From: Sulfurovum sp.
Lineage (GTDB): Bacteria; Campylobacterota; Campylobacteria; Campylobacterales; Sulfurovaceae
NCBI GenBank assembly: GCA_027068485.1
Contig: JAMOSB010000021.1
Location: 1 to 44,284, forward strand
DNA: 44,284 bases
Direction: 5' to 3'
Below, piece by piece: positions 9,314 through 31,446 of this stretch. Position 1 is the first letter of the stretch. Every line of letters starts with the position of its first letter. The notes under the pieces were generated by a model that was given only the letters and a program-made list of their open reading frames with translations, did not search any database and was not told the DNA's origin. The position numbers were made by a program, and so were the translations under genes.

Positions 9314-12300
9314 TTATTTAGCTAAGAGCTTTTTAAGTGTTGCGATATCTGCTTTCTCTTCTAATACATCTGCACAGAAGTCCTCATCAGATGGAGTGCG
9401 TACTAGTGCGAAGGGCTTAGCACCACTATCTCGCACGATATCAGCAACCATACACTTCATACTCGCAAATGGCGTGATATCATAGATAACTGTGGTGTAG
9501 TCCACCTTATCTAGTCTATCCAAAAATGCTTGTTCATCGCTAATCGTCTCTACCTCATAACCAAGATTGGTAAGCTTGGTCTTGTAGAGGTTGGCGATGA
9601 GTCCCATAGAGTGAAAGAAGAGTAGATCTTTTTTCTCCTTGACTACGGGGGTAGGTGTTGGTACAACTTTGGCGACTGCCTCGACTACGGTAGGGTTAGT
9701 AGACTGGGGTGCAGGAGCTGGGATAGGTTGCTCTTCTTTGGTCATCTCTTGGGCGACCTCTTGAGGGGTCTGTACCACACGCCCCTCTTGGACGAGAGGC
9801 TCTTCACGCGGTGTAGGTCTCTCAGGCGTAGGCTCTACCGCTGTCTCACTACTACTCTTGACACGATTAGGGAAGTAAGACTGTATCAAAACATTCAGTT
9901 TCTCAAGCTCAATGGGTTTGGAGAGATAGTTATCCATTCCTGCATTGATATACTTCTCTCTATCTCCCTCTAGTGCATTCGCAGTAAGTGCAATAATAGG
10001 GACATGGTGTTTACGGTTTTTCTCTTCAAGTTTAATAATCTCACCTGTCGCTTCAATCCCACCCATCACTGGCATCTGGATATCCATAAAGATGATATCA
10101 TACTCATTTTGCATACGCTCTCTTACTGCCTCTTCACCATTATTAGCAAGCGTAACCTCTATCCCAAATCCATTGAGAACACTCTTGATAAGCTTTTGAT
10201 TAATCGCATTATCTTCTGCTACCAATGCATGGATATTCTCAAAGGTAATATTTTTATTGACTTCAACTGCTTGCGTACTAGATGTAGTGCTACTCTTTTC
10301 AGAGAGTATCTCAAGTGATTTAAGTACCTTGGTAAGGTTGAGTGGCTTATAGAAAGTTCTATCGATACGCTCTTCAAATCCTTTGAGGCTCTTCTTCTTA
10401 CTTGCAGAAGTGATTAGTACCACTTTGGTATCAAGATCGAGATACTTCTCAACCTCTCCCCCGCGTTTGCGATACTGATGCTCGATAAAGAGTACCTCAG
10501 GAAGTGGGACGCTCTTTTCAAAGAGTTCCCCATCGGTATACCCAATGAGTGTTGCAGCGGTATGCTCAACATAGGCTTCCAAGTTAGGATCAAGTCTCCA
10601 GTCTGCCCCAATCTCTGGGATAAGATATCCCACTGTATGGGTAGCAAACTGTCCGATCTCTCTCGCCTTCGCATAGTCTGGTTTCTTGAAAGTCAAGGTG
10701 AAGAAGAAGGTTGACCCCTCACCCTCTTCACTCTCGATATCCAATACACCCCCCATAAGGGAGGTGAGTTTACCCGAGATAGCAAGTCCTAGCCCTGTAC
10801 CACCAAACTTACGACTGGTACTAATATCTGCTTGAGAGAAGGCATCAAAGATATTCTTCTTCTGCTCCTCAGTGATCCCAATACCTGAGTCAGCCACAGA
10901 GAATTTAATCGTCACCTCTTCATCTATCTCAGAGATCTTCTGCGCACTGACATCGATTGTCCCATGAGAGGGGGTAAACTTGATCGCATTACTAATCAAG
11001 TTGACTAGAATCTGAGAAATCTTCGTAGGATCCCCCATGATATCCGAAGGAAGTGTGGGATCTGCATAGACATTAAAGTCGATGTTTTTCTCTTCAGCTT
11101 TAGCTGCATAGGACTCCATAGAAGCCTCAAACTTCTCCACAGGATCAAAAGCAATACTCTCAATCTCTACCTTATCTGCCTTAATCTTCGAGAGGTCGAG
11201 AATATCGTTTACAATCGCCAAGAGGTTATCTGAACTATTCTCAATAATGGCAATAAACTCCTCTTGTTCATCAGTGGTCTCTGTTGACTTGAGAAGCTGT
11301 GTAAAGCCAACAATACCATTGAGTGGCGTACGAATCTCATGTGACATATTAGCAAGAAAGAGATCTTTTGCTTGGTTGGCTTCACGAATCGTCTCCACCA
11401 AAAACTTATAGATATCGGTCACTTCACGCTGATCGATAAGAATCTGAAGCTCTTTTTGTTGCCCTTTACTCAAAACGGTCTCAATATCTCTAAGGGTATC
11501 ATCGAGTAGTTTTTTATCTTTACTAATACTATTAAGGACTATCAGAAGAACTATCAAGAGTCCAAGGAAAAAGAGTGCGATATAGAGATACTCCATCATC
11601 GTCTGTTTATTGGAATCAATCTGCTGATTAATCTCTCTTTTGGTTGCCAAAAAGATAACATCTTTCGCTTCATTGAGCTTCAAGCTCTTCTTATCCATCA
11701 CCGCTTGCCACTCTGCTACTTTAATGCTATAGTTCCCTTGTAGTGCCTCAGCAAAGATCTTCATGCGTTCCTTAAAAGCGATATGGATAAAGTTCTCAGG
11801 AGTGATGATATCAATCACTTGAGAGTTGAGACTCTCACTACTTAATGCTCCTAAGGTCGGAACACGCTTCTGTGCCAATAGCGTCTCCCACAAGAGAAGA
11901 TCCTCATCACTCATCTTCTCAGACTGACTAAGAATAAATGAGATAAAGGCATTTTCAAGTCCATTGAGCTCTTTGAGCTGCGTAAACTCTGCATAGCTCC
12001 TAAGATCGTTACTAATCTCCAAAGAGAACTCCCCATGACTCAGTGTATACATCAAGTCAACAACCAAGAGAGAGACCTTCTTATAGTAGTTGTCAAAGAA
12101 GATATTTTTATGGTTGCTACTAAACATATCGACACGCGAACGAGTATAACTCAAACTCTCAACAAGCTCACTCATCACTTTTTTGTACGGAGCGAAGAGA
12201 GCGTTACTTGCGATAAACTGATTGATCTTCTCAATCTGCGTATCGACTAATGCTCGCTCCTTTTTAAGGCGATCAAAGATTTTGGTATCTTTACTTCCCA

Positions 12301-12505
12301 TATAGATAGCACTATCAAACTGCTCATCTTTGAGTACTAGCAGTACCCCATTGAGTCTCTCTATCAAGTCGATATTTTTGACACTCTTCTCACTGTTTTT
12401 AAATGCACCATATGAGGTGTAGGTGTAGTAAGAGAATCCCCCTAGTACAACAAATGCTGCCATCAGAAGTAGAATCAATATATTTCTAGTGTTTATTATC
12501 TTCAT
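9314..12505 (-). CDS. Hybrid sensor histidine kinase with periplasmic NIT domain
   Basis: 1063 aa. Order: TM1 (about 9-28), periplasmic nitrate/nitrite-sensing NIT-type helical domain (about 45-290; LLVLKDEQFDSAIYMGS and KELNGLENAFISF are NIT-like), TM2 (306-326), HisKA with MSHEIRTPLNGIVG (His389), HATPase (NLISNAIKF; ADSGIGI; GGTGLGLAIS), a degenerate receiver (about 620-735, keeps FYKPL but has no clear acceptor Asp), a complete receiver (about 758-880, Asp808 in FMDIQMP, LSKP), a Pro/Glu-rich linker, and a C-terminal receiver-like domain (about 975-1063, VIYDITP). There is no HPt domain or DNA-binding output in this window, so the signal must pass to an unlinked HPt or regulator. It is the last gene of the PilJ operon, with GGAG seven bases upstream and an 11-base gap after the preceding gene. 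NIT assignment is from pattern recognition. Confidence 0.9.
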   Translation of the reverse strand: MKIINTRNILILLLMAAFVVLGGFSYYTYTSYGAFKNSEKSVKNIDLIERLNGVLLVLKDEQFDSAIYMGSKDTKIFDRLKKERALVDTQIEKINQFIASNALFAPYKKVMSELVESLSYTRSRVDMFSSNHKNIFFDNYYKKVSLLVVDLMYTLSHGEFSLEISNDLRSYAEFTQLKELNGLENAFISFILSQSEKMSDEDLLLWETLLAQKRVPTLGALSSESLNSQVIDIITPENFIHIAFKERMKIFAEALQGNYSIKVAEWQAVMDKKSLKLNEAKDVIFLATKREINQQIDSNKQTMMEYLYIALFFLGLLIVLLIVLNSISKDKKLLDDTLRDIETVLSKGQQKELQILIDQREVTDIYKFLVETIREANQAKDLFLANMSHEIRTPLNGIVGFTQLLKSTETTDEQEEFIAIIENSSDNLLAIVNDILDLSKIKADKVEIESIAFDPVEKFEASMESYAAKAEEKNIDFNVYADPTLPSDIMGDPTKISQILVNLISNAIKFTPSHGTIDVSAQKISEIDEEVTIKFSVADSGIGITEEQKKNIFDAFSQADISTSRKFGGTGLGLAISGKLTSLMGGVLDIESEEGEGSTFFFTLTFKKPDYAKAREIGQFATHTVGYLIPEIGADWRLDPNLEAYVEHTAATLIGYTDGELFEKSVPLPEVLFIEHQYRKRGGEVEKYLDLDTKVVLITSASKKKSLKGFEERIDRTFYKPLNLTKVLKSLEILSEKSSTTSSTQAVEVNKNITFENIHALVAEDNAINQKLIKSVLNGFGIEVTLANNGEEAVRERMQNEYDIIFMDIQMPVMGGIEATGEIIKLEEKNRKHHVPIIALTANALEGDREKYINAGMDNYLSKPIELEKLNVLIQSYFPNRVKSSSETAVEPTPERPTPREEPLVQEGRVVQTPQEVAQEMTKEEQPIPAPAPQSTNPTVVEAVAKVVPTPTPVVKEKKDLLFFHSMGLIANLYKTKLTNLGYEVETISDEQAFLDRLDKVDYTTVIYDITPFASMKCMVADIVRDSGAKPFALVRTPSDEDFCADVLEEKADIATLKKLLAK

Positions 12506-12516
12506 GCTTCTCCGCC

Positions 12517-13275
12517 TTATTGGTTTTTACTGTGATAGAGTGCTATGGTAGACATAGATCCCTCTAGATAGAGTACCCAGTCACGCAAGAGTGTGGGGAT
12601 AAAGAGTGCCTCAGACCTCTTCGCATACTGTTTACTTGTACTCCAAAATGCATTGAGTTGTGCTTGGTCTTTCTTGAGATTATCAGGATAACTATAGCCA
12701 TTGATCTTGGTGAGTTTACTCTCAAAACTCATCATCGCTTTTTGTAGCTGATCTCGATTGGTTTGACTATCAAATCCAATATGCAAAGCGATATAGTACT
12801 TAATCATCCGTTCAAGGAGATACTCCATCTCCTTAATCGCCATAAGCATCTCCTCCTCCTCACTAAAGTCATAACGGTGGGTAGTTGCAATCGAGTTGGC
12901 TCCTTCAAGGAGGGTTTCACTATAGTCTAGCATCAGTGCTACACTCTCTTCATTGGCTTGTTGTGCTAACATCTCAGCAATCTGATCTTTACTGTAGGCA
13001 AGAAAGTCCAGAATATCTTTGGTGTCACTATCTTTAGTGGTAGAAGCGATCTCTCTAAAGTTACTACTGAGTTCAGAGAGTGCCTGTGTTATACCATTTT
13101 TGACCTCTATTTTGGTAGGATACTTATAGAAGTAGAGGTAGTCTGTTACAATCTTTTGACTTAGATAACGAATGTTTTCAGATGCTTCAATAATCTTCAC
13201 ATCCCCCCGTGTCGCAGCATGCCCTTGCAGTGAGGCAAACAGGATCATTAATGAGACATACAATACTCTTTTCAT
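12517..13275 (-). CDS. Secreted PilJ-like helical protein with degenerate P-boxes
   Basis: 252 aa from the chosen start, with signal peptide MKRVLYVSLMILFASLQGHA. It has the same length and layout as the five upstream proteins, but the first P-box-like motif is decayed to EASENIRYLSQKIVTDY and the second to KEMEYLLERMIKYYIA, so the Gly and the paired Arg residues are missing. All the rest is predicted helical. The frame is open up to 13305, inside the upstream stop region; I choose 13275 because it puts Met directly before the signal peptide, with AGGA nine bases upstream (ATG at 13284 is the alternative). It directly precedes the kinase gene and may act as an adaptor that no longer binds the ligand; that is inference. 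Confidence 0.75.
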   Translation of the reverse strand: MKRVLYVSLMILFASLQGHAATRGDVKIIEASENIRYLSQKIVTDYLYFYKYPTKIEVKNGITQALSELSSNFREIASTTKDSDTKDILDFLAYSKDQIAEMLAQQANEESVALMLDYSETLLEGANSIATTHRYDFSEEEEMLMAIKEMEYLLERMIKYYIALHIGFDSQTNRDQLQKAMMSFESKLTKINGYSYPDNLKKDQAQLNAFWSTSKQYAKRSEALFIPTLLRDWVLYLEGSMSTIALYHSKNQ

Positions 13276-13285
13276 ACTATCCATC

Positions 13286-14074
13286 CTACTTATAGAGTTC
13301 CACATAAAGTGCTGTAATTTTATTCATATTTTTGCTGATATCATCGGTTGTATTGAAGACAATCAGAGGTAATCCACCCTTCTCGATATTGAGATAGAAC
13401 TTATAGACAATCTTCCAGAGTCTATCGATCTTATTGAGTTCACGATTGATCTCTGGGGTATTGGTCTTATTTTTCATCAACAACTCATGCGTCTCTGTGA
13501 AGAGTTTTACTGCTGCTCTCATCTGCTCTACGGTATTCTTATCTTTGATCCCTGATTGATACGCGATATAGTACTTCGCGATACGCTGTGAGAGCATCCG
13601 TTGTCGTCCTGCCATATCGACTACTTTAGAGGCTTTGACATTGGAGAGCTCTTTGAGTGAAGTAACCACATACTCACTCCCCTCTAGCATCGACTCACTC
13701 AAATCCAAAATCAACTGTGCATTATCGGTCGTAAACTTCTCTTTAGCTGTCGCTTCAAAATCCTCACTACTCATCTCAACAAAGGATAAAAGATTCTTAA
13801 TCTCTGGATTATTGATCGAGTTGATCAAAATTGTATGTGCCTCTTTCAGCTCTTTGAGTGACCTATTGAGCTGTCGCTCTGCTTTAGCGGTAGCGATACT
13901 CTTCCCTGCATACATATAATCTTTGGCTATCCGCTGGGAGAGCATACGCTGTTTCCCTGCCATATCGATCAACTTCACCGTATCGGATGCAACGGTCGAT
14001 GCAGATGCCACCACGCTCAAGGAGAGGCTTACCAAAGCAATAAGGGTTGCTTTCTTCATGATATTAGTTTTCAT
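13286..14074 (-). CDS. Secreted tandem PilJ-domain protein, type A, copy 2
   Basis: 262 aa with a signal peptide (about 1-25, SLSLSVVASA). Two PilJ-type units each begin with a P-box-like motif: DMAGKQRMLSQRIAKDY (37-53) and DMAGRQRMLSQRIAKYY (153-169). This family covers the periplasmic sensing regions of PilJ and NarX; in NarX the equivalent P-box arginine binds nitrate. The protein has no membrane anchor or output domain, so it should be a soluble periplasmic receptor or buffer. Its DNA is identical to copy 1 over 802 bp; only the last residues differ (ELYK here, ELYNK there). Ribosome site AAGGAT, spacing six. Confidence 0.85.
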   Translation of the reverse strand: MKTNIMKKATLIALVSLSLSVVASASTVASDTVKLIDMAGKQRMLSQRIAKDYMYAGKSIATAKAERQLNRSLKELKEAHTILINSINNPEIKNLLSFVEMSSEDFEATAKEKFTTDNAQLILDLSESMLEGSEYVVTSLKELSNVKASKVVDMAGRQRMLSQRIAKYYIAYQSGIKDKNTVEQMRAAVKLFTETHELLMKNKTNTPEINRELNKIDRLWKIVYKFYLNIEKGGLPLIVFNTTDDISKNMNKITALYVELYK

Positions 14075-14091
14075 TTACGATCCTTTTATTT
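13290..14091. repeat. 802-bp perfect direct repeat, copy 2
   Basis: Read by eye base for base, this stretch equals 14918-15719 (offset 1628). It covers the type A gene from the fourth-last codon through its ribosome site and ends exactly where the flanking genes diverge. There are no inverted ends or target duplications that would point to a mobile element. Confidence 0.9.
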
Positions 14092-14871
14092 TGCTTCGTT
14101 GGCAACATATTTGTGTGTTGCTTCATTCATATTGATCAGTATATCATTAGACTTTTTATAGATAAGTGAGGGAACAAAGTGTGTAGACTCTTTTTTATTC
14201 ATCATCTCAAAGAAAGTAAAGGATCGTTTTGCCTTCTTTAGATAGCCGTGAATCTCTTCCGTACTCAAAGCCGAGGCTTCAAGCTTAGCTTGAGCTGATT
14301 TGAACTCCTCCATGGCACTATGAAGCTTCATCTTAAACTCACTATCTTTGACCCCCCATACCTTAAGCATATAGAGGCTTGCCATGCGTTGTGAGAGCAT
14401 CCGTTGTCTACCTGAGAGATTAACAATCTCTCCCGAGGCTTGCTTAAGTTCTTTAGCAAAGAGCTGTGTTGCTTCATTGGCTGCTTTGAGGAGGGTATCG
14501 AGATCTTTTTGTAACTGCTCAACCTTCTCGACAGAGGGTGTCGCACTCAAGATCGCTTTGAGTGGTACCCATAGCCTATTGACCTGCTCCATACTCTTTT
14601 TGGTCGCATCACTCTTACTGTAGGCGATAAGTGCGAGTAGATGATCATCAAAGTTGACAATCAAACGCTTAAGATCTTCATGAGGCTTACCAAAAGTGTT
14701 ATTCATCCCAACCATAGCATAATCCTTGAGCATGCGTTGGGTATACATCCGTTGTTTTCCTGCGATATCTACAGCATCCACTGCACTGGTAATTTCAATG
14801 GCACTGGCCATACTCCAAGGCATCGCTACAAACAGTAGTACCTTACTGATTTTTTTAATCCCGCTTCTCAT
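14086..14871 (-). CDS. Secreted tandem PilJ-domain protein, type B, paralogue 3
   Basis: 261 aa from ATG 14871, which has AGGAG eight bases upstream and leads into the signal peptide MRSGIKKISKVLLFVAMPWSMASA; the longer frame from 14907 adds 12 residues in front of it. P-box-like motifs are DIAGKQRMYTQRMLKDY (35-51) and NLSGRQRMLSQRMASLY (151-167). It is closely similar to the protein at 16512-17297 (both share AGKQRM.TQRMLKDYAMVG, SGRQRMLSQRMASLYMLKVWG and IYKKSN/IFKKSN near the end), so the type B genes are paralogues of moderate divergence. It lies between the two identical type A genes. Confidence 0.83.
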   Translation of the reverse strand: MRSGIKKISKVLLFVAMPWSMASAIEITSAVDAVDIAGKQRMYTQRMLKDYAMVGMNNTFGKPHEDLKRLIVNFDDHLLALIAYSKSDATKKSMEQVNRLWVPLKAILSATPSVEKVEQLQKDLDTLLKAANEATQLFAKELKQASGEIVNLSGRQRMLSQRMASLYMLKVWGVKDSEFKMKLHSAMEEFKSAQAKLEASALSTEEIHGYLKKAKRSFTFFEMMNKKESTHFVPSLIYKKSNDILINMNEATHKYVANEAK

Positions 14872-14910
14872 CCTCTTCTCTCCTACTATGGTTTGGCCTA
14901 TACTCAAACT

Positions 14911-15702
14911 CTATTTATTATAGAGTTCCACATAAAGTGCTGTAATTTTATTCATATTTTTGCTGATATCATCGGTTGTATTGAAGACAATCAGAGGTAA
15001 TCCACCCTTCTCGATATTGAGATAGAACTTATAGACAATCTTCCAGAGTCTATCGATCTTATTGAGTTCACGATTGATCTCTGGGGTATTGGTCTTATTT
15101 TTCATCAACAACTCATGCGTCTCTGTGAAGAGTTTTACTGCTGCTCTCATCTGCTCTACGGTATTCTTATCTTTGATCCCTGATTGATACGCGATATAGT
15201 ACTTCGCGATACGCTGTGAGAGCATCCGTTGTCGTCCTGCCATATCGACTACTTTAGAGGCTTTGACATTGGAGAGCTCTTTGAGTGAAGTAACCACATA
15301 CTCACTCCCCTCTAGCATCGACTCACTCAAATCCAAAATCAACTGTGCATTATCGGTCGTAAACTTCTCTTTAGCTGTCGCTTCAAAATCCTCACTACTC
15401 ATCTCAACAAAGGATAAAAGATTCTTAATCTCTGGATTATTGATCGAGTTGATCAAAATTGTATGTGCCTCTTTCAGCTCTTTGAGTGACCTATTGAGCT
15501 GTCGCTCTGCTTTAGCGGTAGCGATACTCTTCCCTGCATACATATAATCTTTGGCTATCCGCTGGGAGAGCATACGCTGTTTCCCTGCCATATCGATCAA
15601 CTTCACCGTATCGGATGCAACGGTCGATGCAGATGCCACCACGCTCAAGGAGAGGCTTACCAAAGCAATAAGGGTTGCTTTCTTCATGATATTAGTTTTC
15701 AT
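14911..15702 (-). CDS. Secreted tandem PilJ-domain protein, type A, copy 1
   Basis: 263 aa. The same protein as the one at 13286-14074 except for one extra Asn before the final Lys. Signal peptide and both P-box motifs are identical, as is the DNA including silent positions, meaning very recent duplication or ongoing gene conversion. Ribosome site AAGGAT with six bases to the ATG. It follows the type B gene at 15714 with an 11-base gap and is followed by a 39-base gap, the longest in the operon. Confidence 0.85.
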   Translation of the reverse strand: MKTNIMKKATLIALVSLSLSVVASASTVASDTVKLIDMAGKQRMLSQRIAKDYMYAGKSIATAKAERQLNRSLKELKEAHTILINSINNPEIKNLLSFVEMSSEDFEATAKEKFTTDNAQLILDLSESMLEGSEYVVTSLKELSNVKASKVVDMAGRQRMLSQRIAKYYIAYQSGIKDKNTVEQMRAAVKLFTETHELLMKNKTNTPEINRELNKIDRLWKIVYKFYLNIEKGGLPLIVFNTTDDISKNMNKITALYVELYNK

Positions 15703-15719
15703 TTACGATCCTTTTATTT
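14918..15719. repeat. 802-bp perfect direct repeat, copy 1
   Basis: Partner of 13290-14091. Recombination between the two copies would loop out 1628 bp, removing one type A gene and the type B gene between them, while keeping the reading frames and the ribosome site. Confidence 0.9.
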
Positions 15720-16499
15720 ACTTTTTGAGCCAAGTTCAGCGTAGAGTCTGGTAGCTACATTAGCCGCATCAAAAATCTCATTGGATTTTTTATAGATAAG
15801 TGTAGGGATAAAAGTGCGCGTGTTTTTATCCATAATTTCAAAAAACTTAAAGGCTTTTCGCTCCTTCTCTAACAATCCTTGAATCTCAGGGGTATTTTTA
15901 TCATACGCTGTGAGGGTTGTGAGATTTCTGGCAAACCACTGCATCGTCTCATCCATCTTAGCTTGAAACTTCTCATTGGTCACACCATAAGATTTAAGCA
16001 GATAGAGACTCGCCATCTTTTGTGAAAGTACCCGTTGCTGTCCTGAGTAGTTGGTGATTTTACCTGACTCTTTTCCCGTCTGCTTAGCAAAGAGTGCTGT
16101 TGTAGTATTGGTATTGGCCGTCATCGCCTCCATAGCGATCTGAAGTTTTTTCGCATTCTCTTGTGAAGGAGGGGCGAGTAGTAGCTTCTTGATAGGAGCC
16201 CAGAGTGCTAACCCCTCTTGAAGGCTTTTTGCTGTCTGCTCATCTTTATTAAACTTGATGAGTGACTCAATCAAATCCTCAAAAGTCGCAATCCCCTCTT
16301 TGAGTCGCTCTTTGGGGTTATTAAAATTATTCTCAAGACATATCATCGCATACTCTTTAAGTACACGCTGCGTAAAGGCACGATGCCGTCCTGAGAAGTT
16401 GACCGCATGGGCAATATCCTTAATCTCCACTGCTTGCATCTGCATTGGCATCACCAACAATCCCACCAGTAACCATTGACCTATTTTTCTCTTTAACAT
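15714..16499 (-). CDS. Secreted tandem PilJ-domain protein, type B, paralogue 2
   Basis: 261 aa, signal peptide MLKRKIGQWLLVGLLVMPMQMQA. The first P-box-like motif is altered to NFSGRHRAFTQRVLKEY (34-50) and the second to NYSGQQRVLSQKMASLY, so several family positions (Lys/Arg-Gln-Arg-Met) are changed compared with its neighbours. This could mean altered ligand preference. The C-terminal helix keeps FIPTLIYKKSNEI. AAAGGGAAG lies just before the ATG, 12 bases after the previous gene. Confidence 0.82.
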   Translation of the reverse strand: MLKRKIGQWLLVGLLVMPMQMQAVEIKDIAHAVNFSGRHRAFTQRVLKEYAMICLENNFNNPKERLKEGIATFEDLIESLIKFNKDEQTAKSLQEGLALWAPIKKLLLAPPSQENAKKLQIAMEAMTANTNTTTALFAKQTGKESGKITNYSGQQRVLSQKMASLYLLKSYGVTNEKFQAKMDETMQWFARNLTTLTAYDKNTPEIQGLLEKERKAFKFFEIMDKNTRTFIPTLIYKKSNEIFDAANVATRLYAELGSKSK

Positions 16500-16511
16500 A
16501 CTCTTCCCTTT

Positions 16512-17297
16512 CTATTTTTGTGACTCTTGTGCTGCGTACAACCCTGTAGCGGTATTCATATCTTTTAAGATCTCATTAGATTTTTTGAAAATCAATGCAG
16601 GGATGAATTTTGTTGTTGTCCTATTCATCACCTCGAAAAATCGAAAAGACTTTTTAGCTCTCTCTAGTAGTGCAGATATCTCTGCGGTATTGAGCTCTGA
16701 AGCCATCAATCGATCAAGAGAGGTACTAAAAAGATGCATACTATCTTCCATCTTCTTCTTAAACTCTGGATCATTGATCCCCCAAACTTTGAGCATATAG
16801 AGACTTGCCATGCGTTGTGAAAGCATCCGTTGCCGACCCGAGATATTGATAATCTCTCCAGAGACTTTTCCTGTCTGCTTAGCAAAAAGTCCTGTGGCTT
16901 CATTGGCTTGCTTGAGTAGTGCCTCTAACTTCTCCTGCATCTCTCCTGCTTGCTCTTTGCGTGGTTTCTCTTTGAGTGCAACCTTAATAGGCTTCCAGAG
17001 AACTTGAACCTTTTTGAGACTCTCTGCGGTTGCAGGATCTCTATTGAAGTCTATCAGTGATCCTAGATGGTTTTCAAATGCCTCCATAATCTTCGTCAAA
17101 TCCTCTGCAGGATGACCAAAACTATTCTCTAACCCTACCATCGCATAATCTTTTAACATCCGCTGTGTAAACATCCGCTGTTTCCCTGCGACATCGACCG
17201 CTTCAGAGAGATTTTTAATCTCAATAGCAGAGAGAAAACTGCTCATCAATAGCGGAAGAAGAGCAATTTTAACAACGCTTTTTGTCAAGATTTTCAC
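16512..17297 (-). CDS. Secreted tandem PilJ-domain protein, type B, paralogue 1 (first gene of operon)
   Basis: 261 aa, GTG start with the ribosome site AAGGAG seven bases upstream. Signal peptide about 1-24 (ALLPLLMSSFLSA). P-box-like motifs are DVAGKQRMFTQRMLKDY (35-51) and NISGRQRMLSQRMASLY (151-167). It is the promoter-proximal member of a seven-gene operon that ends with the NIT hybrid kinase. Family knowledge: PilJ/NarX-type helical bundles sense small anions such as nitrate and nitrite; binding by this protein is inferred only. Confidence 0.84.
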   Translation of the reverse strand: MKILTKSVVKIALLPLLMSSFLSAIEIKNLSEAVDVAGKQRMFTQRMLKDYAMVGLENSFGHPAEDLTKIMEAFENHLGSLIDFNRDPATAESLKKVQVLWKPIKVALKEKPRKEQAGEMQEKLEALLKQANEATGLFAKQTGKVSGEIINISGRQRMLSQRMASLYMLKVWGINDPEFKKKMEDSMHLFSTSLDRLMASELNTAEISALLERAKKSFRFFEVMNRTTTKFIPALIFKKSNEILKDMNTATGLYAAQESQK

Positions 17298-17312
17298 GAT
17301 AAACTCCTTCTA

Positions 17313-17369
17313 CCCATAATATGGGCTATCTCATAAATTGTACTTTTTACGGACTTAAACAAAACTTAA
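17313..17369 (-). promoter_or_regulatory. Promoter and putative operator of the PilJ/NIT operon
   Basis: On the minus strand a -10-like TACAAT (17337-17342) lies 40 bases before the GTG. Two direct repeats TTAAGT (17353-17358 and 17364-17369) are spaced 11 bp start to start, one helical turn, and overlap the -35 position, where no consensus hexamer is present. This layout is typical of binding by an OmpR-family response regulator that activates transcription. In the leader, CCCATAATATGGG (17313-17325) is a near-perfect palindrome between the start site and the ribosome site. Function is inferred from position only. Confidence 0.45.
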
Positions 17370-17429
17370 GCTATTTTTTGAAACAACCACTTTCAGCTCT
17401 CTCAAAAGCTGTATACCCATCAACAATTG

Positions 17430-24345: not shown

Positions 24346-24816
24346 TTACCCAAAATACTCCGCCATAATCTTCGGAAAGAGTCCGATGGTCTTTTGGGCT
24401 TTCTCTATCTTGGGTTGGAAGATCTCTTGGGAGGCGGGGAAGGTGGTGATGAGTTCTTGGTAGATAGCTATCTTCTCTTTCATATGCTCCTCTAGTGCAT
24501 CGAGTACCGCCTGCATCGTCTCTTTGCTTGTGGCATACTTCATCAGTAGCTCAAACATCCGTTTACGAGGGTGTATCGCCATACTATCACCTGCTTTGAG
24601 GGCGATGGCTTTGATATCCCATCGTGAGATGTAGATCCCACTCACACTCGGAGCGATCAGCTTGGCGTACAACGCTTCGGTATAGGAGGGGTAGTCCTTG
24701 AGGTCACTCTCCTCCTCACTCTCACACGACCCATCCGCACAAAACGCACGCGTCCCATTAAACCCTTGCTCATTAAACTTCGCAAACTCTTCTCTCAACT
24801 CATCTATATCACGCAT
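24346..24816 (-). CDS. Unrecognised soluble protein, last gene of the Mo oxidoreductase accessory run
   Basis: 156 aa, mostly helical, no signal peptide. Near the N-terminus is a short Cys pair in AFCADGSCESEEES; the remainder is a long helical region (residues 85-150, e.g. VLDALEEHMKEKIAIYQELI). Its start overlaps the previous gene by eight bases, so expression is tied to the TorD and ferredoxin genes. I do not recognise a family. A role in maturation of the Mo enzyme is inferred from position only. Confidence 0.7.
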   Translation of the reverse strand: MRDIDELREEFAKFNEQGFNGTRAFCADGSCESEEESDLKDYPSYTEALYAKLIAPSVSGIYISRWDIKAIALKAGDSMAIHPRKRMFELLMKYATSKETMQAVLDALEEHMKEKIAIYQELITTFPASQEIFQPKIEKAQKTIGLFPKIMAEYFG

Positions 24817-25288
24817 TCTCTTCTCCTATCAGTAGTGGGACTTGATCCACCTCTAGTGCCACACCAAACCAACGGTTGGCGATCAGCATCATCTTTGCGA
24901 CCAATAGCATCGTCTCATCGACAAACGCAGGATCACCAAAGCACGCCAGTGCCTCCTCATCCAAGCAGTAGCCCACAATCTCCCCAGACACAACCTCGAT
25001 AAAATCAATCCGCCCTCTCTGCTTGGCAGAGGGGTTGAGCCTCTGACAGTAGCCCACCGCACGAGAGGCAAACTCAGGCTCTAGCATCATCTTATCGACC
25101 TTGGAGTGGGCAACCCCATCCATCGTAAAGGCAAAATGCTCATCGGTGATATTGAGTGCGATCGCCGTGGCATTGGTCTGACTTGCGTTGAGGATACGGT
25201 TGAAGTAGCGTCGTCTCTTACCTCGTTGGGCATTGTATCCAAGGATCGTACAGAGCTGGGTATCGGGTCTTATCTCATGGGGTTTCAT
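24809..25288 (-). CDS. Unrecognised soluble protein, Mo oxidoreductase accessory run
   Basis: 159 aa, no signal peptide or membrane segment. It has a basic stretch GKRRRYFNRILNASQTNATAI and a compact alpha/beta composition; single Cys residues are scattered without a metal-binding pattern. The ATG overlaps the ferredoxin stop (ATGA), showing translational coupling. Family unknown; it may be a cofactor or chaperone-type accessory. Confidence 0.7.
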   Translation of the reverse strand: MKPHEIRPDTQLCTILGYNAQRGKRRRYFNRILNASQTNATAIALNITDEHFAFTMDGVAHSKVDKMMLEPEFASRAVGYCQRLNPSAKQRGRIDFIEVVSGEIVGYCLDEEALACFGDPAFVDETMLLVAKMMLIANRWFGVALEVDQVPLLIGEENA

Positions 25289-26394
25289 CGGGTTACCTCG
25301 TGGTATTTAGTGTATGGTTGGGGAGTCTGATGGAGTGCCATCGCCTCCTCCTCTTCTATCCTACAGCGAGGACACGACTGCTCCCCCTCATGGTAGGTAA
25401 AGGGGTTGCCACACTCCTCACAACGCCGTATATCAAACGCAACAAGTGTACGCTCTCTAGGCTCAAAAAACTCCGCTATCTCAAAGCCCCCCTGTAGCCC
25501 TATCGCATCAGGCTCACAGACATCATGACAGAGGTGACACTTCACACAGAGCATCGCATCAAAGGCGATTAGGGAGAAGTTACCATCGGAGTGCAACGCA
25601 CCTGTTGGACAGATACGGTAGCAGATTTGACAGTTGGTACACGAAGCGGTGACAAACTTCTGTGAGATGAACCCCACCGCCTCTTGGGGTAGTACCTCTA
25701 GCACCTCAGGTTGCTTGGCACGCGTGAGTGTGGTAAGGAGTATCTTGCGTTTGTCAGGGAGGTGTCGCTCCTTGATCTTGGCGATCATCTCTTGGGCGAT
25801 CTCAAAGGCGTGAGGCTCCTCTGCCTCCACCGCCTCCTCAAAGGCTCGCTTCTGCTTCAACGCACCCGTGAGTGATGCCGACCCTAAAAACGCCCGCCGA
25901 CTCGCCACCATATCCTCTACCACTTGGGGGGTAGTCGCCTCGGTATGGTTACTCTCTAGGCGTTTGTCACAGAAGCTAGAGAGGAGGTAGTTTGCCTCGG
26001 CTATCCGCTCCTCCATCTGCTCCAACCCTACACGATCCTTCGCGTAGTAGTGAAGATCTAGTACGATAGGCTCCTCACTCGCCACCGCCAATGCGATGAG
26101 ATGCTCCACACTCAGCACCAACAGAGAGGGGAGATTGAGTGTAGGAGAGAGGAGCCGTACTTTTGACTCCAAAAAGGTAAAAAAGAACTCCGTCACGCTA
26201 AAGTCTGAGAGGCTCAACGCCTCAGTGGGACACGCCCCTACACACGCTGCCGCCTCGACCCCTGTCCCTTTGGCAAAGCTTGGCAACCCCTCGACCATAC
26301 CCAGATGCTTAGGGGATGCCTCGACACACTGCATACAGGAGGCAAACTTACTCTTCGCCCGTACACAGCGTGAGAGATCAAGATGTAACTTCAT
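25285..26394 (-). CDS. Two-domain ferredoxin, NapF-like, with zinc ribbon
   Basis: 369 aa from ATG 26394 (a GTG precedes it by one codon). The N-terminal half has an unusual Cys set (C-x9-CMQC-x27-CVGACP). A twin-arginine-like SRRAFLGSASLTGA sits at about 165-178, as in the opening of NapF proteins. Two classical 4Fe-4S motifs follow (CTNCQICYRICP, CVKCHLCHDVCEP), then a C-terminal CEEC...CPRC zinc ribbon (325-344). It looks like a fusion of a Cys-rich module with a NapF-type cytoplasmic ferredoxin that helps mature or feed electrons to Mo enzymes. The internal RR is not expected to export it. Start is seven bases after the TorD stop region. Confidence 0.82.
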   Translation of the reverse strand: MKLHLDLSRCVRAKSKFASCMQCVEASPKHLGMVEGLPSFAKGTGVEAAACVGACPTEALSLSDFSVTEFFFTFLESKVRLLSPTLNLPSLLVLSVEHLIALAVASEEPIVLDLHYYAKDRVGLEQMEERIAEANYLLSSFCDKRLESNHTEATTPQVVEDMVASRRAFLGSASLTGALKQKRAFEEAVEAEEPHAFEIAQEMIAKIKERHLPDKRKILLTTLTRAKQPEVLEVLPQEAVGFISQKFVTASCTNCQICYRICPTGALHSDGNFSLIAFDAMLCVKCHLCHDVCEPDAIGLQGGFEIAEFFEPRERTLVAFDIRRCEECGNPFTYHEGEQSCPRCRIEEEEAMALHQTPQPYTKYHEVTR

Positions 26395-26397
26395 CAC

Positions 26398-27045
26398 CTA
26401 GGCTACCGCACTACAGTGCTGGGCTAGGGTATCGGTGAGATACTCATAGTCACTAAGCAAAAAGTCCAGTGTCAGCTCCGCTCCATCATGGTAGAGTGGC
26501 GTGCGTGACTCTCGCTTGGCATTGATGAGAAACATCGGAGCCCACTGGAGTAGATGCTCTTTGAGAAAGGCGTGTTGTACCGCAAGGAGTTCACACACCC
26601 CCTCACGATCCTCCGCTTCGAGAGCTTTTTGCATCGCCAAGCAGAGCATATACATAAACTCCAACTCCACACCGATATGATCAGCACTCACCACCCTTGC
26701 CCGATCGAGTTCTACCCGAAAGTCTAGGTCATTGTAGAGTGCGATGACAGGGTTCTCCCCGCCACTCTCAATCATCTGATCCTCACGGGTATAGAAGCTC
26801 TCATAGGGGACAAGGTGCATCAAGAAGAGGTTGGTAAAGTCTACATTGTAGTACGCTGTCATGAGGGTTTCTCTCTTTACAGTTTTTCGCTTATCCCAGT
26901 CACGGTAGTTGGGTAGAAAGGAGAGTAGCACCTCATCACTCTCCAACTGCTCCAAAAAGAGCTCATCTACCTCTACAAGCATCAATCGTGAGATTAAGGC
27001 GTAGAGGGTAACACGGTTTTGTATCTCTTGTTTCATCTGTTTCAT
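26398..27045 (-). CDS. TorD-family chaperone for the molybdoenzyme
   Basis: 215 aa, all-helical. The family motif is seen as HLVPYESFYTREDQ and later VSADHIGVELEFMYMLC and EHLLQWAPMFL. TorD/DmsD proteins bind the Tat leader and apo-form of a Mo oxidoreductase until cofactor is inserted. The only Tat-dependent Mo enzyme here is encoded just upstream, so it is the likely client. AGGAG six bases before the ATG. Confidence 0.9.
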   Translation of the reverse strand: MKQMKQEIQNRVTLYALISRLMLVEVDELFLEQLESDEVLLSFLPNYRDWDKRKTVKRETLMTAYYNVDFTNLFLMHLVPYESFYTREDQMIESGGENPVIALYNDLDFRVELDRARVVSADHIGVELEFMYMLCLAMQKALEAEDREGVCELLAVQHAFLKEHLLQWAPMFLINAKRESRTPLYHDGAELTLDFLLSDYEYLTDTLAQHCSAVA

Positions 27046-27078
27046 ATTTCTCTCCTTAGGTTAGGGGTACTATACCAC

Positions 27079-27113
27079 TTTCCCGATACTACCACACGGA
27101 TTCTATCGGGAAA
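27079..27113. other. Ten-bp perfect hairpin between the Mo catalytic gene and torD
   Basis: TTTCCCGATA and TATCGGGAAA are perfect arms with a 15-nt loop. On the minus strand (direction of transcription) no T tract follows. It may protect or process mRNA ends, or be an operator for the torD part. Confidence 0.6.
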
Positions 27114-27120
27114 ATCGTAG

Positions 27121-27154
27121 AGCCGATGGGGAAGACCCCACCGTTGTATCGGCT
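27121..27154 (-). terminator. Nested hairpin just after the Mo catalytic gene, possible partial terminator
   Basis: AGCCGAT and ATCGGCT form a seven-bp outer stem around an inner GGGG-TCTT-CCCC hairpin. It lies directly after the stop codon. On the minus strand CTACGATTTTCCC follows, only four T residues, so termination may be incomplete and lower the level of the accessory genes. Confidence 0.5.
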
Positions 27155-27155
27155 A

Positions 27156-30100
27156 CTACTTCGTGAGTTTGACCGCGTATGCCTTGGCAGACAACGGCAC
27201 CGCAGGACGCTTCATATGGACAGGTCGTCTGAGTCTATCCGTCGTATCGAGGGGGCGGGTGAGCTGATCTCTCCACGCCTTGTAGACCTTCATATTGTTC
27301 TCATAGTTGACATAGATATCCCCTATCTTGTCCCCTTTTTGAGCCTTCTCTATCACCACCTTTTGGTGCCATGCGTGGTTACCTGCGATAGGGTCGGGGT
27401 GGGAGGGAGCTACCGCATTTTGCCATGAGCCACTCAATCCATCCCACCAGATATTGTCAAGGTCTTTATTAAACGCCTTAAACTGCCAGCTCTCACGACG
27501 CTCCTGCATCCCCTCATTGAGTCCTTGGGTCGGTTTGAGTGTCCCCACCTTACCATCCATCGTCATCTCATAGAGTGGCGCACCTAGCCCCATCACCCCA
27601 AGCTTCTGCTCAAACCCTGGGATCTCTACAGCATTTTTGAGCTTCCAGCGTCCTGCGTGGTGTGAACATGCCAAGACCCCTGGCATCGTCCCCTCGGTAG
27701 GGACTGCCATCGCGATAAAGTAGCCTGAGTCAAGCCCCGATACCGTATCGGTAATGGTCACCTTGATCGCCTCACCTCGTTTGATCCCTAGACGCTTGGC
27801 ATCTTGGGTGTTGATCCACACAGGGTTGTGGTTTTGTGAGATCTCCATAAGGTGCTTGGAGTTGACCGAACGGGTGTGGATATTGTACGGCAGTCTAAAG
27901 ACCGTATTGAGTGCAAACTCATTATCCTTCTGCATAAAGTCATGGTGTACCTGCGTGACGATATGCGTCATCTGCTTTCGCCCCTCTGGTGTAGTAGGGT
28001 AGATCGGGATCGCATACTCTGGCCACTTCCACTGAGCAAACCACTCAGAGTAGAACTCTAGCTTCTTAGAGAGGGTATGGAACCCCTCCATAATCTCCCC
28101 ATCGATCTCGATACCGATCGCCTTCTTACCACCGTGGACAGGATCATCAACTAGCAGGGTACCAAAGGCATCTTGTTCCACCTCATCTGCTTCGTAGTGA
28201 TGCCCATGGGCGATATAGCGACTCCCCTCTTTGTGAAGGGGTCGCTCCTGAGGCTTATAGATGTTGTCCTCTTCGAGCCATGTCCCTCTATCACGCATCA
28301 TCTCGTAGTTGGGATACTTTGCGTCTGGGTAGCATTTTTTCGCCTCTTTTTTGAGGTTTGGAAGGGTGTCAAAGGCAGCTTGATACCACTCCGCTATCGT
28401 CACCGCACGCCGAGGATCCTCTTTGGAAGCCCAGTGCTTTCTGACCCCTAGACTTCCATCAGGATCGACATGGTGTACCATAATGTTCGCCCAGAACTCC
28501 ACCTCTTCCCACACTTCTCCTAGTCCCGCTTTGATGTGGGCTTCGAGGGTCGCTCTGGTGGGGTCTTTGGGCGTCCACCCCATCTTCTCTAGTGCCACAC
28601 GCAACGCAGGGTTACGGAAACTTAGCCAACGAGAGGGTTGTGTCGCTTCAGAGTGCTGATCGTGTCGCTCCCCTGCAAGCCCCACAGGCAAGATAAAGTC
28701 ACAGTACCAGTTGGTCTCAGACCATGTAGGGGAGAGGTTGAAGCTCAGCTCTATCTTATCCTCTCGCTTGAGTGCTTCGATCCATCTAAACCCATCAGGA
28801 TTAATCCAGACGGGATTATACATCCGTGGGATCCACACCGCAAGCTTCTTGGGGACATTGAGTCCTTTGGCATTCCACTTCGCTCTCCACTCATCATCAA
28901 GAAGGAGGTGAGGCATAATATGACTCATCTCATAGGTACTGAGTGGATACTCAGGAGGCCATGCGATCTCATTCCAAACATCGACCTTGGGAGGCTTGGT
29001 ACCATGCTCTGTCGCAGCATTTCCTTTGCCGTTGACTGAGATGACATGCCAGTGGTGGAGTCCAATCCCCCCCTTATCCCCTGCCATCGCACCACGCAAG
29101 ACAAAAGGCAAGAAGGCACTACGGGCGATCATCCACCCCCCTTTGTGTCCAATGGATCCTGCTCTCCAGATATAGGTCGCCACGCTTGCACCCGCATCGA
29201 TAAAGAGATCATAGAGCTTCTCTACGATGCGTTTCTCAATACGGCACTCCTGTGCAACAAACTCTAGTGTATAAGGAGAGTACATCTGTGCGATCATCTC
29301 GATAAACGCCTCATAGCTATCCTCTCTAGGCACAGATTTGATATACCCCTTCTCTACGAGGAGTGCAAGGTACTTTTTATCTGCCATAAGGCGATCCCAG
29401 TTGACCCAATTTTTGACAAAGGCGTGGTTGACTAGATCATTACCATTGCTATCTTTCTCATTGAGGATACGGTTGGCAAGGTAGAGATACAACGCCGTCT
29501 CTGTCCCAGGCCAACACGGTACCCAAAGGTCTGCCATCCCTGCGGAGTTGGAGAGGCGTGGATCCATGACCACAAGCTTCGCCCCTTTTTTGCGTGCCTC
29601 TGCGATACGCCCCGCAGCTTGTTGGAAGTAGTGTCCCGCATCCGCAGCGTGTGAGGATTGCAAAAAGATGAGCTTGGCATTGCTCCAGTCAGGTGAGTTT
29701 CTATCATCATTTGCCCACTGTATCGTCCCCTCTCTAGCGCCAGCAGAGCAGATATTGGTGTGGGAGTCATACCCATCACACCCCATAGAGTGTGGTACAC
29801 GGTGTCCAAACCCATTCTCATTGGGACGACCCACATGGTACATAATCGACTTACGAGAGATCTCATCACCACTCTTGAGGGTGTCGTGCATCTTCTTACC
29901 GATCGTAGACATCGCCTCATCCCAAGTGGTACGCACCCACTTCCCCTCTCCTCTTTTGGAACCTGATGCACGCATCAAAGGAAACGGGATACGGTCAGGG
30001 TCATACATCTGTGACTGTGACGCGTACCCTTTGGCACAGTTGCGTCCACGGCTCCCTGCGTGGAGTGGGTTACCCATATACTTACGCACCGCAAGCCCGC

Positions 30101-30488
30101 CACCTGCCTTGTAAGTCGAGAGATCGACCCACGCGGTGAGTCCACACGAGGCTTCACAGTTGGAACACGCAGTGGGGACTAGCATATACTCAGTCGCCTC
30201 AATCCCATCAGGGTTCTTCTCACTCTTGATACCATTACGCCCTGTACCCCCTCGTTTCCAGTCATTGCCATCGAGCTGAGTGAAGCTATCCCACGACTTG
30301 AGTGGTGGGTAGAACGAAAGGCTCTTCGGGGTTGAGGTAAACTGATGTGTTGCGTGTGCAGGGGTGTCGGCTATGGTCTGGAAGACCCCCGTTGCGAGTG
30401 TCGCACCTGCGAGGGAGTAGGCACTCCCCTTGAGGAAGCTTCGTCTGCTCTCGATAAAGTTGTTGCTATTTTTCATTGATTTTGTCAT
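27156..30488 (-). CDS. Tat-exported molybdopterin (bis-PGD) oxidoreductase, catalytic subunit of a PsrA/SoeA/TtrA-type complex
   Basis: 1110 aa, long for the DMSO reductase family. Twin-arginine signal SRRSFLKG (14-21) with a hydrophobic stretch and ADTPAHA cleavage-type end. A 4Fe-4S motif is formed by Cys108, Cys111, Cys115 and Cys151 (CSNCEASC...RNCAKG). The likely Mo ligand is Cys247 in SHTNICSAGA. Bis-PGD binding segments (LIFLQSSHAADAGHY; LVVMDPRLSNSAG; ELSFNLSPTWSETNWYCDFILP) and the C-terminal domain are present. With the FeS and NrfD-type subunits encoded just upstream it forms a periplasmic complex linked to quinones. Candidates are polysulfide, thiosulfate or tetrathionate reductase or a sulfite-type dehydrogenase; sequence alone does not decide. 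AAGGAG before the ATG. Confidence 0.85.
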   Translation of the reverse strand: MTKSMKNSNNFIESRRSFLKGSAYSLAGATLATGVFQTIADTPAHATHQFTSTPKSLSFYPPLKSWDSFTQLDGNDWKRGGTGRNGIKSEKNPDGIEATEYMLVPTACSNCEASCGLTAWVDLSTYKAGGGLAVRKYMGNPLHAGSRGRNCAKGYASQSQMYDPDRIPFPLMRASGSKRGEGKWVRTTWDEAMSTIGKKMHDTLKSGDEISRKSIMYHVGRPNENGFGHRVPHSMGCDGYDSHTNICSAGAREGTIQWANDDRNSPDWSNAKLIFLQSSHAADAGHYFQQAAGRIAEARKKGAKLVVMDPRLSNSAGMADLWVPCWPGTETALYLYLANRILNEKDSNGNDLVNHAFVKNWVNWDRLMADKKYLALLVEKGYIKSVPREDSYEAFIEMIAQMYSPYTLEFVAQECRIEKRIVEKLYDLFIDAGASVATYIWRAGSIGHKGGWMIARSAFLPFVLRGAMAGDKGGIGLHHWHVISVNGKGNAATEHGTKPPKVDVWNEIAWPPEYPLSTYEMSHIMPHLLLDDEWRAKWNAKGLNVPKKLAVWIPRMYNPVWINPDGFRWIEALKREDKIELSFNLSPTWSETNWYCDFILPVGLAGERHDQHSEATQPSRWLSFRNPALRVALEKMGWTPKDPTRATLEAHIKAGLGEVWEEVEFWANIMVHHVDPDGSLGVRKHWASKEDPRRAVTIAEWYQAAFDTLPNLKKEAKKCYPDAKYPNYEMMRDRGTWLEEDNIYKPQERPLHKEGSRYIAHGHHYEADEVEQDAFGTLLVDDPVHGGKKAIGIEIDGEIMEGFHTLSKKLEFYSEWFAQWKWPEYAIPIYPTTPEGRKQMTHIVTQVHHDFMQKDNEFALNTVFRLPYNIHTRSVNSKHLMEISQNHNPVWINTQDAKRLGIKRGEAIKVTITDTVSGLDSGYFIAMAVPTEGTMPGVLACSHHAGRWKLKNAVEIPGFEQKLGVMGLGAPLYEMTMDGKVGTLKPTQGLNEGMQERRESWQFKAFNKDLDNIWWDGLSGSWQNAVAPSHPDPIAGNHAWHQKVVIEKAQKGDKIGDIYVNYENNMKVYKAWRDQLTRPLDTTDRLRRPVHMKRPAVPLSAKAYAVKLTK

Positions 30489-30498
30489 TGTTTTCTCC

Positions 30499-31446
30499 TT
30501 AACTCAACGGTAACATCTGTGGGATTTTGAGCCACACATCTTTGGCAAGGTAGAGTCCAATCAGTGCCAATATCGCCCCAAATCTCAAGAGTGTATCGTT
30601 GCTACTTCTACGATACCCCACTGCGATAAAAAAGGGGATCACAAAGCCTAGTACCATACCAAACCAAAACTCACTATTGTAGACACCACCACTATGGACA
30701 TACGCCAAAGTCGCCTCTACCTCTGCGGACTTAAAGGAGAAGAAGTACTCTCCCATATACATCATAAAGCTAAAGAAGGTCGCCACGGCTAAGAGGAGTG
30801 CGAGATCTCTGCGTGCTGCTTGACTCCAGCGTGCCGAGGTGAAGATGAGTGTCGCCGAACCAGCCAAGAGAGCTGCCCAGATCATCTGCATCATCTCAGT
30901 AGGGGCTTGCCATAGCTCTCTCGCACTCGACTCCGCCATAATAATCGCCGTATAGAGTGTCACAGGTACAGCAAGGAAGACCACAAACGGAAAGATCCGC
31001 TCATAGAGGTCACTATTGGCTCTGGCTTTTTTGGCTAGCGGACAGTGTCGTCGCACCTCAGGGAAGGCATCACCCCCCCCAATCACCATCATCACCGTAA
31101 TCAACCCTGTAAAGAGCGATGCCATCCATGCACCCACCGTGATAGCCGAACTCCAGTTAGGGTGTAAGAAGATATTGATCATACGGTAGGGCTGATGGAG
31201 GTCAACTAGCGTAAAGAGCAAGAAGATATTGAGTGCGACAAATGCCAAGAGTGGCATCATCCACCGAAGATTGGGCATAGACTCTTTGTGGTGTCGATGG
31301 AGCAGAAACGCCCCGACAAGTACCACACCCGTACCGATACTCTTTGCCCACATATTGAGGGTGATCATCCACCCCCAGATAATCCCAGGAAGTGCCACAT
31401 CAAGTGTCACCACCGCTTGTGTTGCGTGAACTGTATGCTCTACCAT
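30499..31446 (-). CDS. NrfD/PsrC-like membrane anchor subunit
   Basis: 315 aa with about eight membrane helices. It should pass electrons between the quinone pool and the FeS subunit of the Mo complex; it lacks haem-binding His pairs of cytochrome b type, as usual for NrfD. The ATG adjoins the end of the FeS gene (shares one base) and its stop is 10 bases from the catalytic gene. Confidence 0.87.
   Translation of the reverse strand: MVEHTVHATQAVVTLDVALPGIIWGWMITLNMWAKSIGTGVVLVGAFLLHRHHKESMPNLRWMMPLLAFVALNIFLLFTLVDLHQPYRMINIFLHPNWSSAITVGAWMASLFTGLITVMMVIGGGDAFPEVRRHCPLAKKARANSDLYERIFPFVVFLAVPVTLYTAIIMAESSARELWQAPTEMMQMIWAALLAGSATLIFTSARWSQAARRDLALLLAVATFFSFMMYMGEYFFSFKSAEVEATLAYVHSGGVYNSEFWFGMVLGFVIPFFIAVGYRRSSNDTLLRFGAILALIGLYLAKDVWLKIPQMLPLS

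Follow-up and report, generated by a model that had tools for sequence, protein, structure and literature searches.

The 44,284-nt contig of Sulfurovum sp. analyzed here (JAMOSB010000021.1, the whole of which is called the window) carries a tight operon of seven genes, all on the minus strand at 9314-17297, which encode six secreted proteins and one hybrid histidine kinase (K). This operon is a real, conserved variant of sensing by a kinase with periplasmic partners. Our favored reading, held tentatively and at somewhat below an even chance, is that the kinase keeps the scaffold of a NIT-type sensor and not its pocket, that free periplasmic NIT/tandem-PilJ proteins bind nitrate or nitrite and signal via a further secreted protein (C), that the operon is switched by cyclic di-GMP (c-di-GMP) in many species, and that the NIT domain is in origin a fused PilJ dimer. 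The narrower statement that soluble nitrate/nitrite receptors act via an adaptor on a receptor-blind kinase is an even call. Nitrate-binding PilJ domains carry an N-box of the pattern [IVL]-[ND]-x-A-G-x-Q-R-M-L-[ST]-Q (PMC6381276), and the secreted proteins were divided into types A (A1 and A2), B, and C.

The operon and its conservation

The features of the operon are the following.

16512..17297, minus strand: G1, secreted tandem-PilJ protein of A1 type, with boxes AVDVAGKQRMFTQ and IINISGRQRMLSQ; two PF13675 matches (E 3.4e-21)
15714..16499, minus strand: G2, extra, fast-diverging, lineage-specific secreted protein of A type; two PF13675 matches (E 2.8e-14)
14911..15702, minus strand: G3, B-type secreted tandem-PilJ protein with two full N-boxes, identical to G5 except for the final residues
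14086..14871, minus strand: G4, secreted tandem-PilJ protein of A2 type; ATG start, with a TTG frame reaching 14907; two PF13675 matches (E 6.4e-18)
13286..14074, minus strand: G5, B-type secreted tandem-PilJ protein adjoining C (the ancestral position), with full N-boxes IDMAGKQRMLSQ and VDMAGRQRMLSQ; two PF13675 matches (E 1e-19)
13934..13969, minus strand: N-box 1 of G5, on helix 1, with Arg43 (motif pattern and AlphaFold2 model)
13586..13621, minus strand: N-box 2 of G5, on helix 5, with Arg159 (motif pattern and AlphaFold2 model)
12517..13275, minus strand: G6, C-type secreted relative of the tandem-PilJ proteins, aligning with B, boxes lost; ATG start, open frame to 13305
9314..12505, minus strand: K, hybrid histidine kinase with a transmembrane segment, NIT-fold periplasmic sensor, second transmembrane segment, HisKA, HATPase_c, receiver, and C-terminal region (Pfam and sensor model)
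11684..12316, minus strand: NIT-fold sensor of K, both pocket arginines replaced (Q62, N185)
13290..14091, minus strand: 802-bp perfect direct repeat, G5 copy
14918..15719, minus strand: 802-bp perfect direct repeat, G3 copy
17298..17429, minus strand: leader/promoter region, containing CCCATATTATGGG

The original prediction, made from the letters of the sequence, had described seven genes on one strand with gaps of 10-39 nt; this layout holds, given ATG starts for G6 (MKR..., at 13275) and G4 (MRS..., at 14871). Its PilJ and NIT assignments are borne out by Pfam profiles, since G1-G5 each have two PF13675 matches (E for the whole protein 3e-14 to 3e-21, above the curated cut-off in every case) and K contains NIT (E 4e-14; 53.9 bits, the cut-off being 24.9) together with HisKA, HATPase_c, and receiver domains. 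Of the six tandem-PilJ proteins that it had proposed, five stand by profile; the sixth, G6, gave no match in the PF13675 search and is, judged by its sequence, a degenerate relative, being alignable with the other five and belonging to a family that is 24-30% identical to B (E about 1e-9 to 1e-20). A Sec-type signal, made up of a positively charged N-terminus, a hydrophobic core, and an A-x-A-like end, was recognized by eye at the start of each of the six secreted proteins. A profile search of the window's genome found no PilJ domain elsewhere and NIT in four genes. The restriction of PilJ proteins to this one place and a gene order shared with dozens of relatives speak against a chance arrangement. 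The C-terminal region of K includes the receiver and has no Hpt domain in Pfam, and the operon itself contains neither a response regulator gene nor an Hpt gene.

Orthologs of G1, 65-78% identical, take the first operon position in relatives, and the G4 type is the second A gene in several of them. G2, in contrast to these, has no counterpart at the same position in the relatives' loci that were read; its boxes are altered (GRHRAFTQ and GQQRVLSQ), and in the tree it forms a long branch (1.19) placed with low support close to the A1 clade. A stretch of 802 bases, of which 17 are upstream and 785 coding, is identical in G3 and G5; the two copies are spaced 1628 bp apart, and for this identity recent duplication, gene conversion, and an assembly effect are the candidate explanations. 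Since the two genes encode the same protein, the operon has five different secreted proteins, not six.

A scan of genome collections yielded 381 relatives of B, and the locus counts given here use the best 79 loci, which belong to assemblies of Sulfurovum, Nitratifractor, and other Campylobacterota, for the most part metagenome-assembled, with Sulfurovaceae predominating. The gene order in relatives is fixed as A1-(A2)-B-C-kinase, with a median intergenic gap of 11.5 nt. One or two A genes precede B in 63 of 66 loci, and in 67 of the 74 B genes with enough downstream DNA the next gene encodes a secreted C- or A-like protein and the one after it the kinase, so that the predicted synteny of the secreted genes with a NIT kinase is kept nearly always. 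Hence the conserved core consists of four secreted proteins (A1, A2, B, and C), and the six genes of the window represent a local expansion of it. In an even sample of the phylum (249 genomes), B was found in nine, i.e., the window's own genome, two more of the same genus, five from two other genera of the family, and one from another family. PilJ matches were detected in 22 of 60 related genomes and, in many genomes of the same genus, lie slightly more than 1 kb from a NIT match.

In three loci (L104, L167, and L168) A-B is present and C and K do not adjoin it; in L104 (3375-6008) A-B occupies the same chromosomal place, from DUF2231 to truA, without C and the kinase. The kinases of L143 and L153 lack the first half of NIT, with A-B-C kept, and those of L145 and L148 are similarly short. 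The idea that the short kinases of some loci represent a different output was rejected, as their Pfam content is NIT and/or HATPase_c without a receiver, with neither a cyclase nor a chemoreceptor domain. The kinase is the one neighbor that most loci have in common, and the other flanks differ between lineages. Four neighboring genes (truA, DUF2231, UPF0093, and an endonuclease/phosphatase-family gene) were considered as functional partners and rejected, since they are conserved within one lineage and changed in others, and their association is thus positional.

Predicted folds and the putative pocket

The AlphaFold2 model of G5, built with 77 sequences, consists of eight helices (predicted local distance difference test, pLDDT, 91.5; predicted template modeling score, pTM, 0.85). 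Among known structures the model matches the NIT domain of NasR best (4akk; Z 20.2, root-mean-square deviation (rmsd) 4.4, 249 residues), over nearly the whole chain; the next matches, among them McpN (Z 15.8, rmsd 2.0, 114 residues), Pseudomonas aeruginosa PilJ, and NarQ, span one half only. The sensor of K was modeled with a pLDDT of 93.3, and it too matches NasR best (Z 24.4, the next match having Z 9.6); this likeness was seen by fold comparison only, a sequence search of PDB with the K sensor having returned nothing useful. One predicted fold is thus common to B and the K sensor, and a tandem PilJ protein appears to be built like a NIT domain. New here, beside this predicted fold of B, are the conservation of the box arginines in A and B with their frequent loss from the kinase sensor, the covariation of C with that sensor, the confinement of the full operon to napA-bearing genomes in the genus, and the riboswitch leaders of many relatives. 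The original prediction had not noted the common fold, the degenerate kinase pocket, the probable kinase-facing role of C, the riboswitch, or the paralogous systems of the same genome. The A proteins, as full-length homologs of B, are assumed to share it.

In McpN, one nitrate is bound on the dimer axis via one arginine per subunit, which lies inside the N-box (PMC6381276). The pocket proposed for NasR includes R176 on helix 5, with helix 1 close by (PMC7496416), and in the AlphaFold2 model the two N-box arginines of B sit on helices 1 and 5, near the position of that pocket. Both halves of G3 and G5 match the N-box pattern, and at least one full match is present in 72 of 82 B proteins, among which box 1 keeps the residues A, G, Q, R, M, L, S, and Q of the nitrate N-box at 96-100%. 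The A proteins are often off the strict pattern, with Phe/Tyr for Leu and Ser for Ala; those of the window (Phe/Tyr or Ser) have no strict match, and G1 and G4 keep AGxQRM/SGxQRM. Conservation of the box arginines themselves is 98% for box 1 of B, 92% for its box 2, and 97% for each of the A boxes. The pattern search found no N-box in C proteins.

The kinase sensor has mostly lost what A and B keep. The NasR-like pocket arginines (ERG motifs on helices 1 and 5) are absent from the K sensor of the window, where Gln62 and Asn185 occupy their positions. Among 54 operon kinase sensors, the arginine is found on helix 1 in 31, on helix 5 in 12, and on both in 10, and the glycine of ERG in one. Of the stand-alone NIT kinases of the genus that were examined, the majority retain ERG on helix 1 as well as helix 5; the stand-alone kinase of the window's genome (C12) has a pocket that is only partly intact. 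The worn receptor pocket of K, taken together with receptor-like secreted proteins, suggests that nitrate detection has perhaps moved from the kinase to separate periplasmic proteins.

In 46 complete loci, the median identity is 57% for A, 61% for B, 42% for C, 22% for the kinase sensor, and 62% for the kinase core. The covariation of C with the kinase sensor is the strongest (r 0.88, partial r 0.72 given the kinase core), the corresponding partial values being 0.33 for A and 0.39 for B. From these sequence comparisons, C is probably the kinase-facing adaptor.

Regulation, genome context, and competing explanations

The leaders of six relatives contain aptamers of the c-di-GMP-I or c-di-GMP-I-GGC families of Rfam. 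A model built from these six gave 16 matches in 1.06 Mb of loci, distributed over 15 loci; 10 of the matches are new, the other six being the sequences used for training, which the model recovers by design. Each of the 16 coincides with an A-gene start or lies shortly before it, on the same strand as the gene. The leader riboswitches are as follows.

L073:6578-6656, c-di-GMP-I class (Rfam)
L076:9409-9486, c-di-GMP-I class (Rfam)
L077:11373-11453, c-di-GMP-I class (Rfam)
L081:6583-6663, c-di-GMP-I class (Rfam)
L198:6721-6801, c-di-GMP-I class (Rfam)
L199:10792-10875, c-di-GMP-I class (Rfam)
L092, L094, L097, L118, L119, L121, L122, L125, and L139, further leader riboswitches (model from the aptamers)

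The leader of the window contains no riboswitch, even at E up to 5, and its inverted repeat CCCATATTATGGG is absent from the relatives' leaders examined; five c-di-GMP riboswitches are present elsewhere in the window's genome.

The same genome has napA, cytochrome cd1, and nosZ. Within the genus, napA is found in 13 of 13 genomes with the operon vs. 13 of 23 without it (Fisher p 0.006, uncorrected for phylogeny; partial matches at contig ends were counted as present, and G031, which has a lone A gene and no napA, was left out). The association of the operon with cytochrome cd1 (9/13 vs. 10/23) and nosZ (6/13 vs. 6/23) in the genus is not significant, and therefore no denitrification regulon is claimed. 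In two loci from other families of Campylobacterales (L021:1-2564 and L022:765-2388), an N-box PilJ membrane protein without a kinase domain adjoins a Crp/Fnr-like regulator, and in L021 napA lies directly downstream of this pair. The window also contains a molybdoenzyme cluster (24346-32195) with a 1110-aa catalytic subunit, a TtrB/ArrB-like iron-sulfur subunit, NrfD, a TorD-like chaperone, an iron-sulfur protein, and two unnamed proteins, none of which reached an NCBIfam equivalog cut-off, and a tmRNA gene at the contig end (43908-44281).

Several loci place phosphorelay genes beside the secreted proteins. FIST, kinase, and Hpt genes precede A-B-C-K in L075, where the Hpt match is weak and below the Pfam cut-off; FIST and kinase genes likewise lie upstream of the operon in L088, and kinase, Hpt, and REC/EAL genes upstream of B-C in L137. 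A paralogous locus of the window's genome (L173, 4408-12486, G000:C9) encodes FIST, a hybrid kinase, Hpt (again a weak match below the Pfam cut-off), a LuxR-type regulator, a C-type secreted protein (C'), and a NIT-fold kinase (K'), with no A or B. A third locus of this genome (L195, 6590-11617, G000:C7), like L196, encodes A-like and B/C-like secreted proteins followed by a NIT-fold kinase; of the two C7 proteins, the B/C-like one at least no longer has the box. FIST proteins include the nitric oxide (NO) sensor NosP; those beside the operons are candidate heme/NO binders.

We infer the ligand of the system, its physical contacts, the direction of its signal, its phosphorelay partner, and its target genes as follows. 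Reception and transduction would be divided between separate proteins of one periplasmic complex sensing nitrogen oxyanions. The A- and B-type proteins would be soluble single-chain NIT-fold receptors, in which the two N-boxes of a chain (helices 1 and 5) are expected to make one nitrate/nitrite pocket, an intramolecular version of the dimer site of McpN and NarX. C, the pocketless paralog, would couple these receptors to the degenerate NIT sensor of K, which may autophosphorylate and pass the phosphoryl group to its own receiver, then to a separate Hpt protein and a response regulator. The likely role would be the adjustment of nitrate respiration (Nap) and associated behavior, and in relatives c-di-GMP would set the expression of the operon.

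The following points weigh against this scheme. Stand-alone NIT-fold kinases of about 880 aa (L172 and L175-L178) have degenerate pockets and no adjacent secreted genes, and pocket loss alone therefore needs no secreted partners. P. aeruginosa PilJ, in which the N-box is not conserved, binds nitrate with neither of its two PilJ domains (PMC6381276). The covariation between C and the kinase sensor may partly reflect the fast evolution of both, the association with napA ignores phylogeny, and the operon does not adjoin nap in the loci seen.

A first alternative, which we consider unlikely, is that the secreted proteins sense another small anion or an organic acid, the N-box arginines forming a general anion pocket, and that the kinase controls something besides nitrate respiration. 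Domains of similar four-helix structure, as found among the matched structures, bind varied ligands, the departures of the A proteins from the strict box agree with such a view, and the paralogous loci C7 and C9 keep secreted partners with degenerate boxes, so that the family probably has other ligands. The near-invariance of the nitrate N-box residues in B box 1 and the restriction of the full operon in the genus to napA-bearing genomes argue against this alternative; a nitrogen oxyanion, as in the original prediction, is a plausible ligand.

The original prediction saw in the operon six receptors of differing specificity. In its general form, with each A or B paralog having its own affinity or anion and widening the dynamic range of one kinase, this idea is compatible with outsourced nitrate reception; we regard it as improbable. 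Box residues do differ among A1, A2, and B, and G2 is altered and fast evolving; most relatives, however, have only one A and one B, and the identity of G3 and G5 looks like dosage or gene conversion instead. The count of six distinct receptors does not survive, since the core comprises A1 and A2 (or one A), B, and C, two genes of the window are identical, and the C box is lost. Ligand competition or buffering, also proposed there, is not supported in the present analysis. The least probable alternative, to which we give little credence, is that the kinase senses alone and that A, B, and C act in the periplasm as chaperones or to buffer nitrate (e.g., supplying substrate to Nap) and share an operon for co-expression: it agrees with the better conservation of the receptor proteins than of the kinase sensor and with the A-B pairs of L104, L167, and L168, and it is at odds with C-kinase pairs lacking A or B (G000 C9 and G011 C46), with a kinase sensor devoid of pocket arginines, and with the covariation of C and that sensor.

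Known systems and significance

The claim that no system of this form has been described agrees with the literature searched, in which none was found and in which subscription journals were thinly covered. The secreted proteins share with McpN, NarX, and NarQ (PF13675) the four-helix PilJ halves with the AGxQRMLSQ box, and one half of B superposes on the structure of McpN. Those proteins are transducers in the membrane, and each homodimer has one site, whereas here a pair of PilJ halves makes up a single soluble secreted chain without a transmembrane or output domain; in contrast to the NarX/NarQ-NarL/NarP systems, PilJ is not fused to the kinase, and the operon of the window has no regulator gene. 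NasR (PF08376) has the same eight-helix NIT fold and gave the best whole-length match for both models, yet it is an antiterminator with its own pocket, whereas in the present system the secreted proteins have retained the pocket residues and the kinase has lost them. The periplasmic region of the P. aeruginosa PilJ chemoreceptor (8wdf, 7zjr) likewise has two PilJ domains per chain. It aligns well with only one half of B, so that the two-domain arrangement appears to differ, and PilJ further differs from B as a membrane chemoreceptor with an unconserved N-box and no nitrate binding (PMC6381276).

In its general design, the system predicted from these genes resembles TorT-TorS, LuxP-LuxQ, and XylFII-LytS, in which a separate periplasmic ligand-binding protein works with a kinase. 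As in TorT-TorS, the gene for the secreted protein adjoins that for a hybrid kinase; the kinase type of K is also that of TorS and LuxQ, and the sensor structures of TorS and LytS were among the matches of the fold comparison. The known systems have single partners with periplasmic-binding-protein folds, whereas B is predicted to be all-helical and NIT-like, and there are three to six helical receptor-like partners that have the same fold as the sensor of the kinase. Directly upstream of a few loci, genes for FIST and a hybrid kinase, sometimes with an Hpt gene, recall NosP-NahK. The known systems of that type sense NO in the cytoplasm; here FIST is only a neighbor in a minority of loci and is absent beside the operon of the window.

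The secreted proteins are small, soluble, and well predicted, and the favored reading is hence testable. If it is true, it would provide a candidate nitrate sensor for Sulfurovum-like bacteria, which are major nitrate-reducing sulfur oxidizers at vents and in sediments, and would link c-di-GMP, through the riboswitch, with nitrate perception. As a design, it would show reception handed over to several soluble proteins that have the sensor fold of the kinase itself, and it would connect the PilJ and NIT families of nitrate sensors directly at the level of structure.

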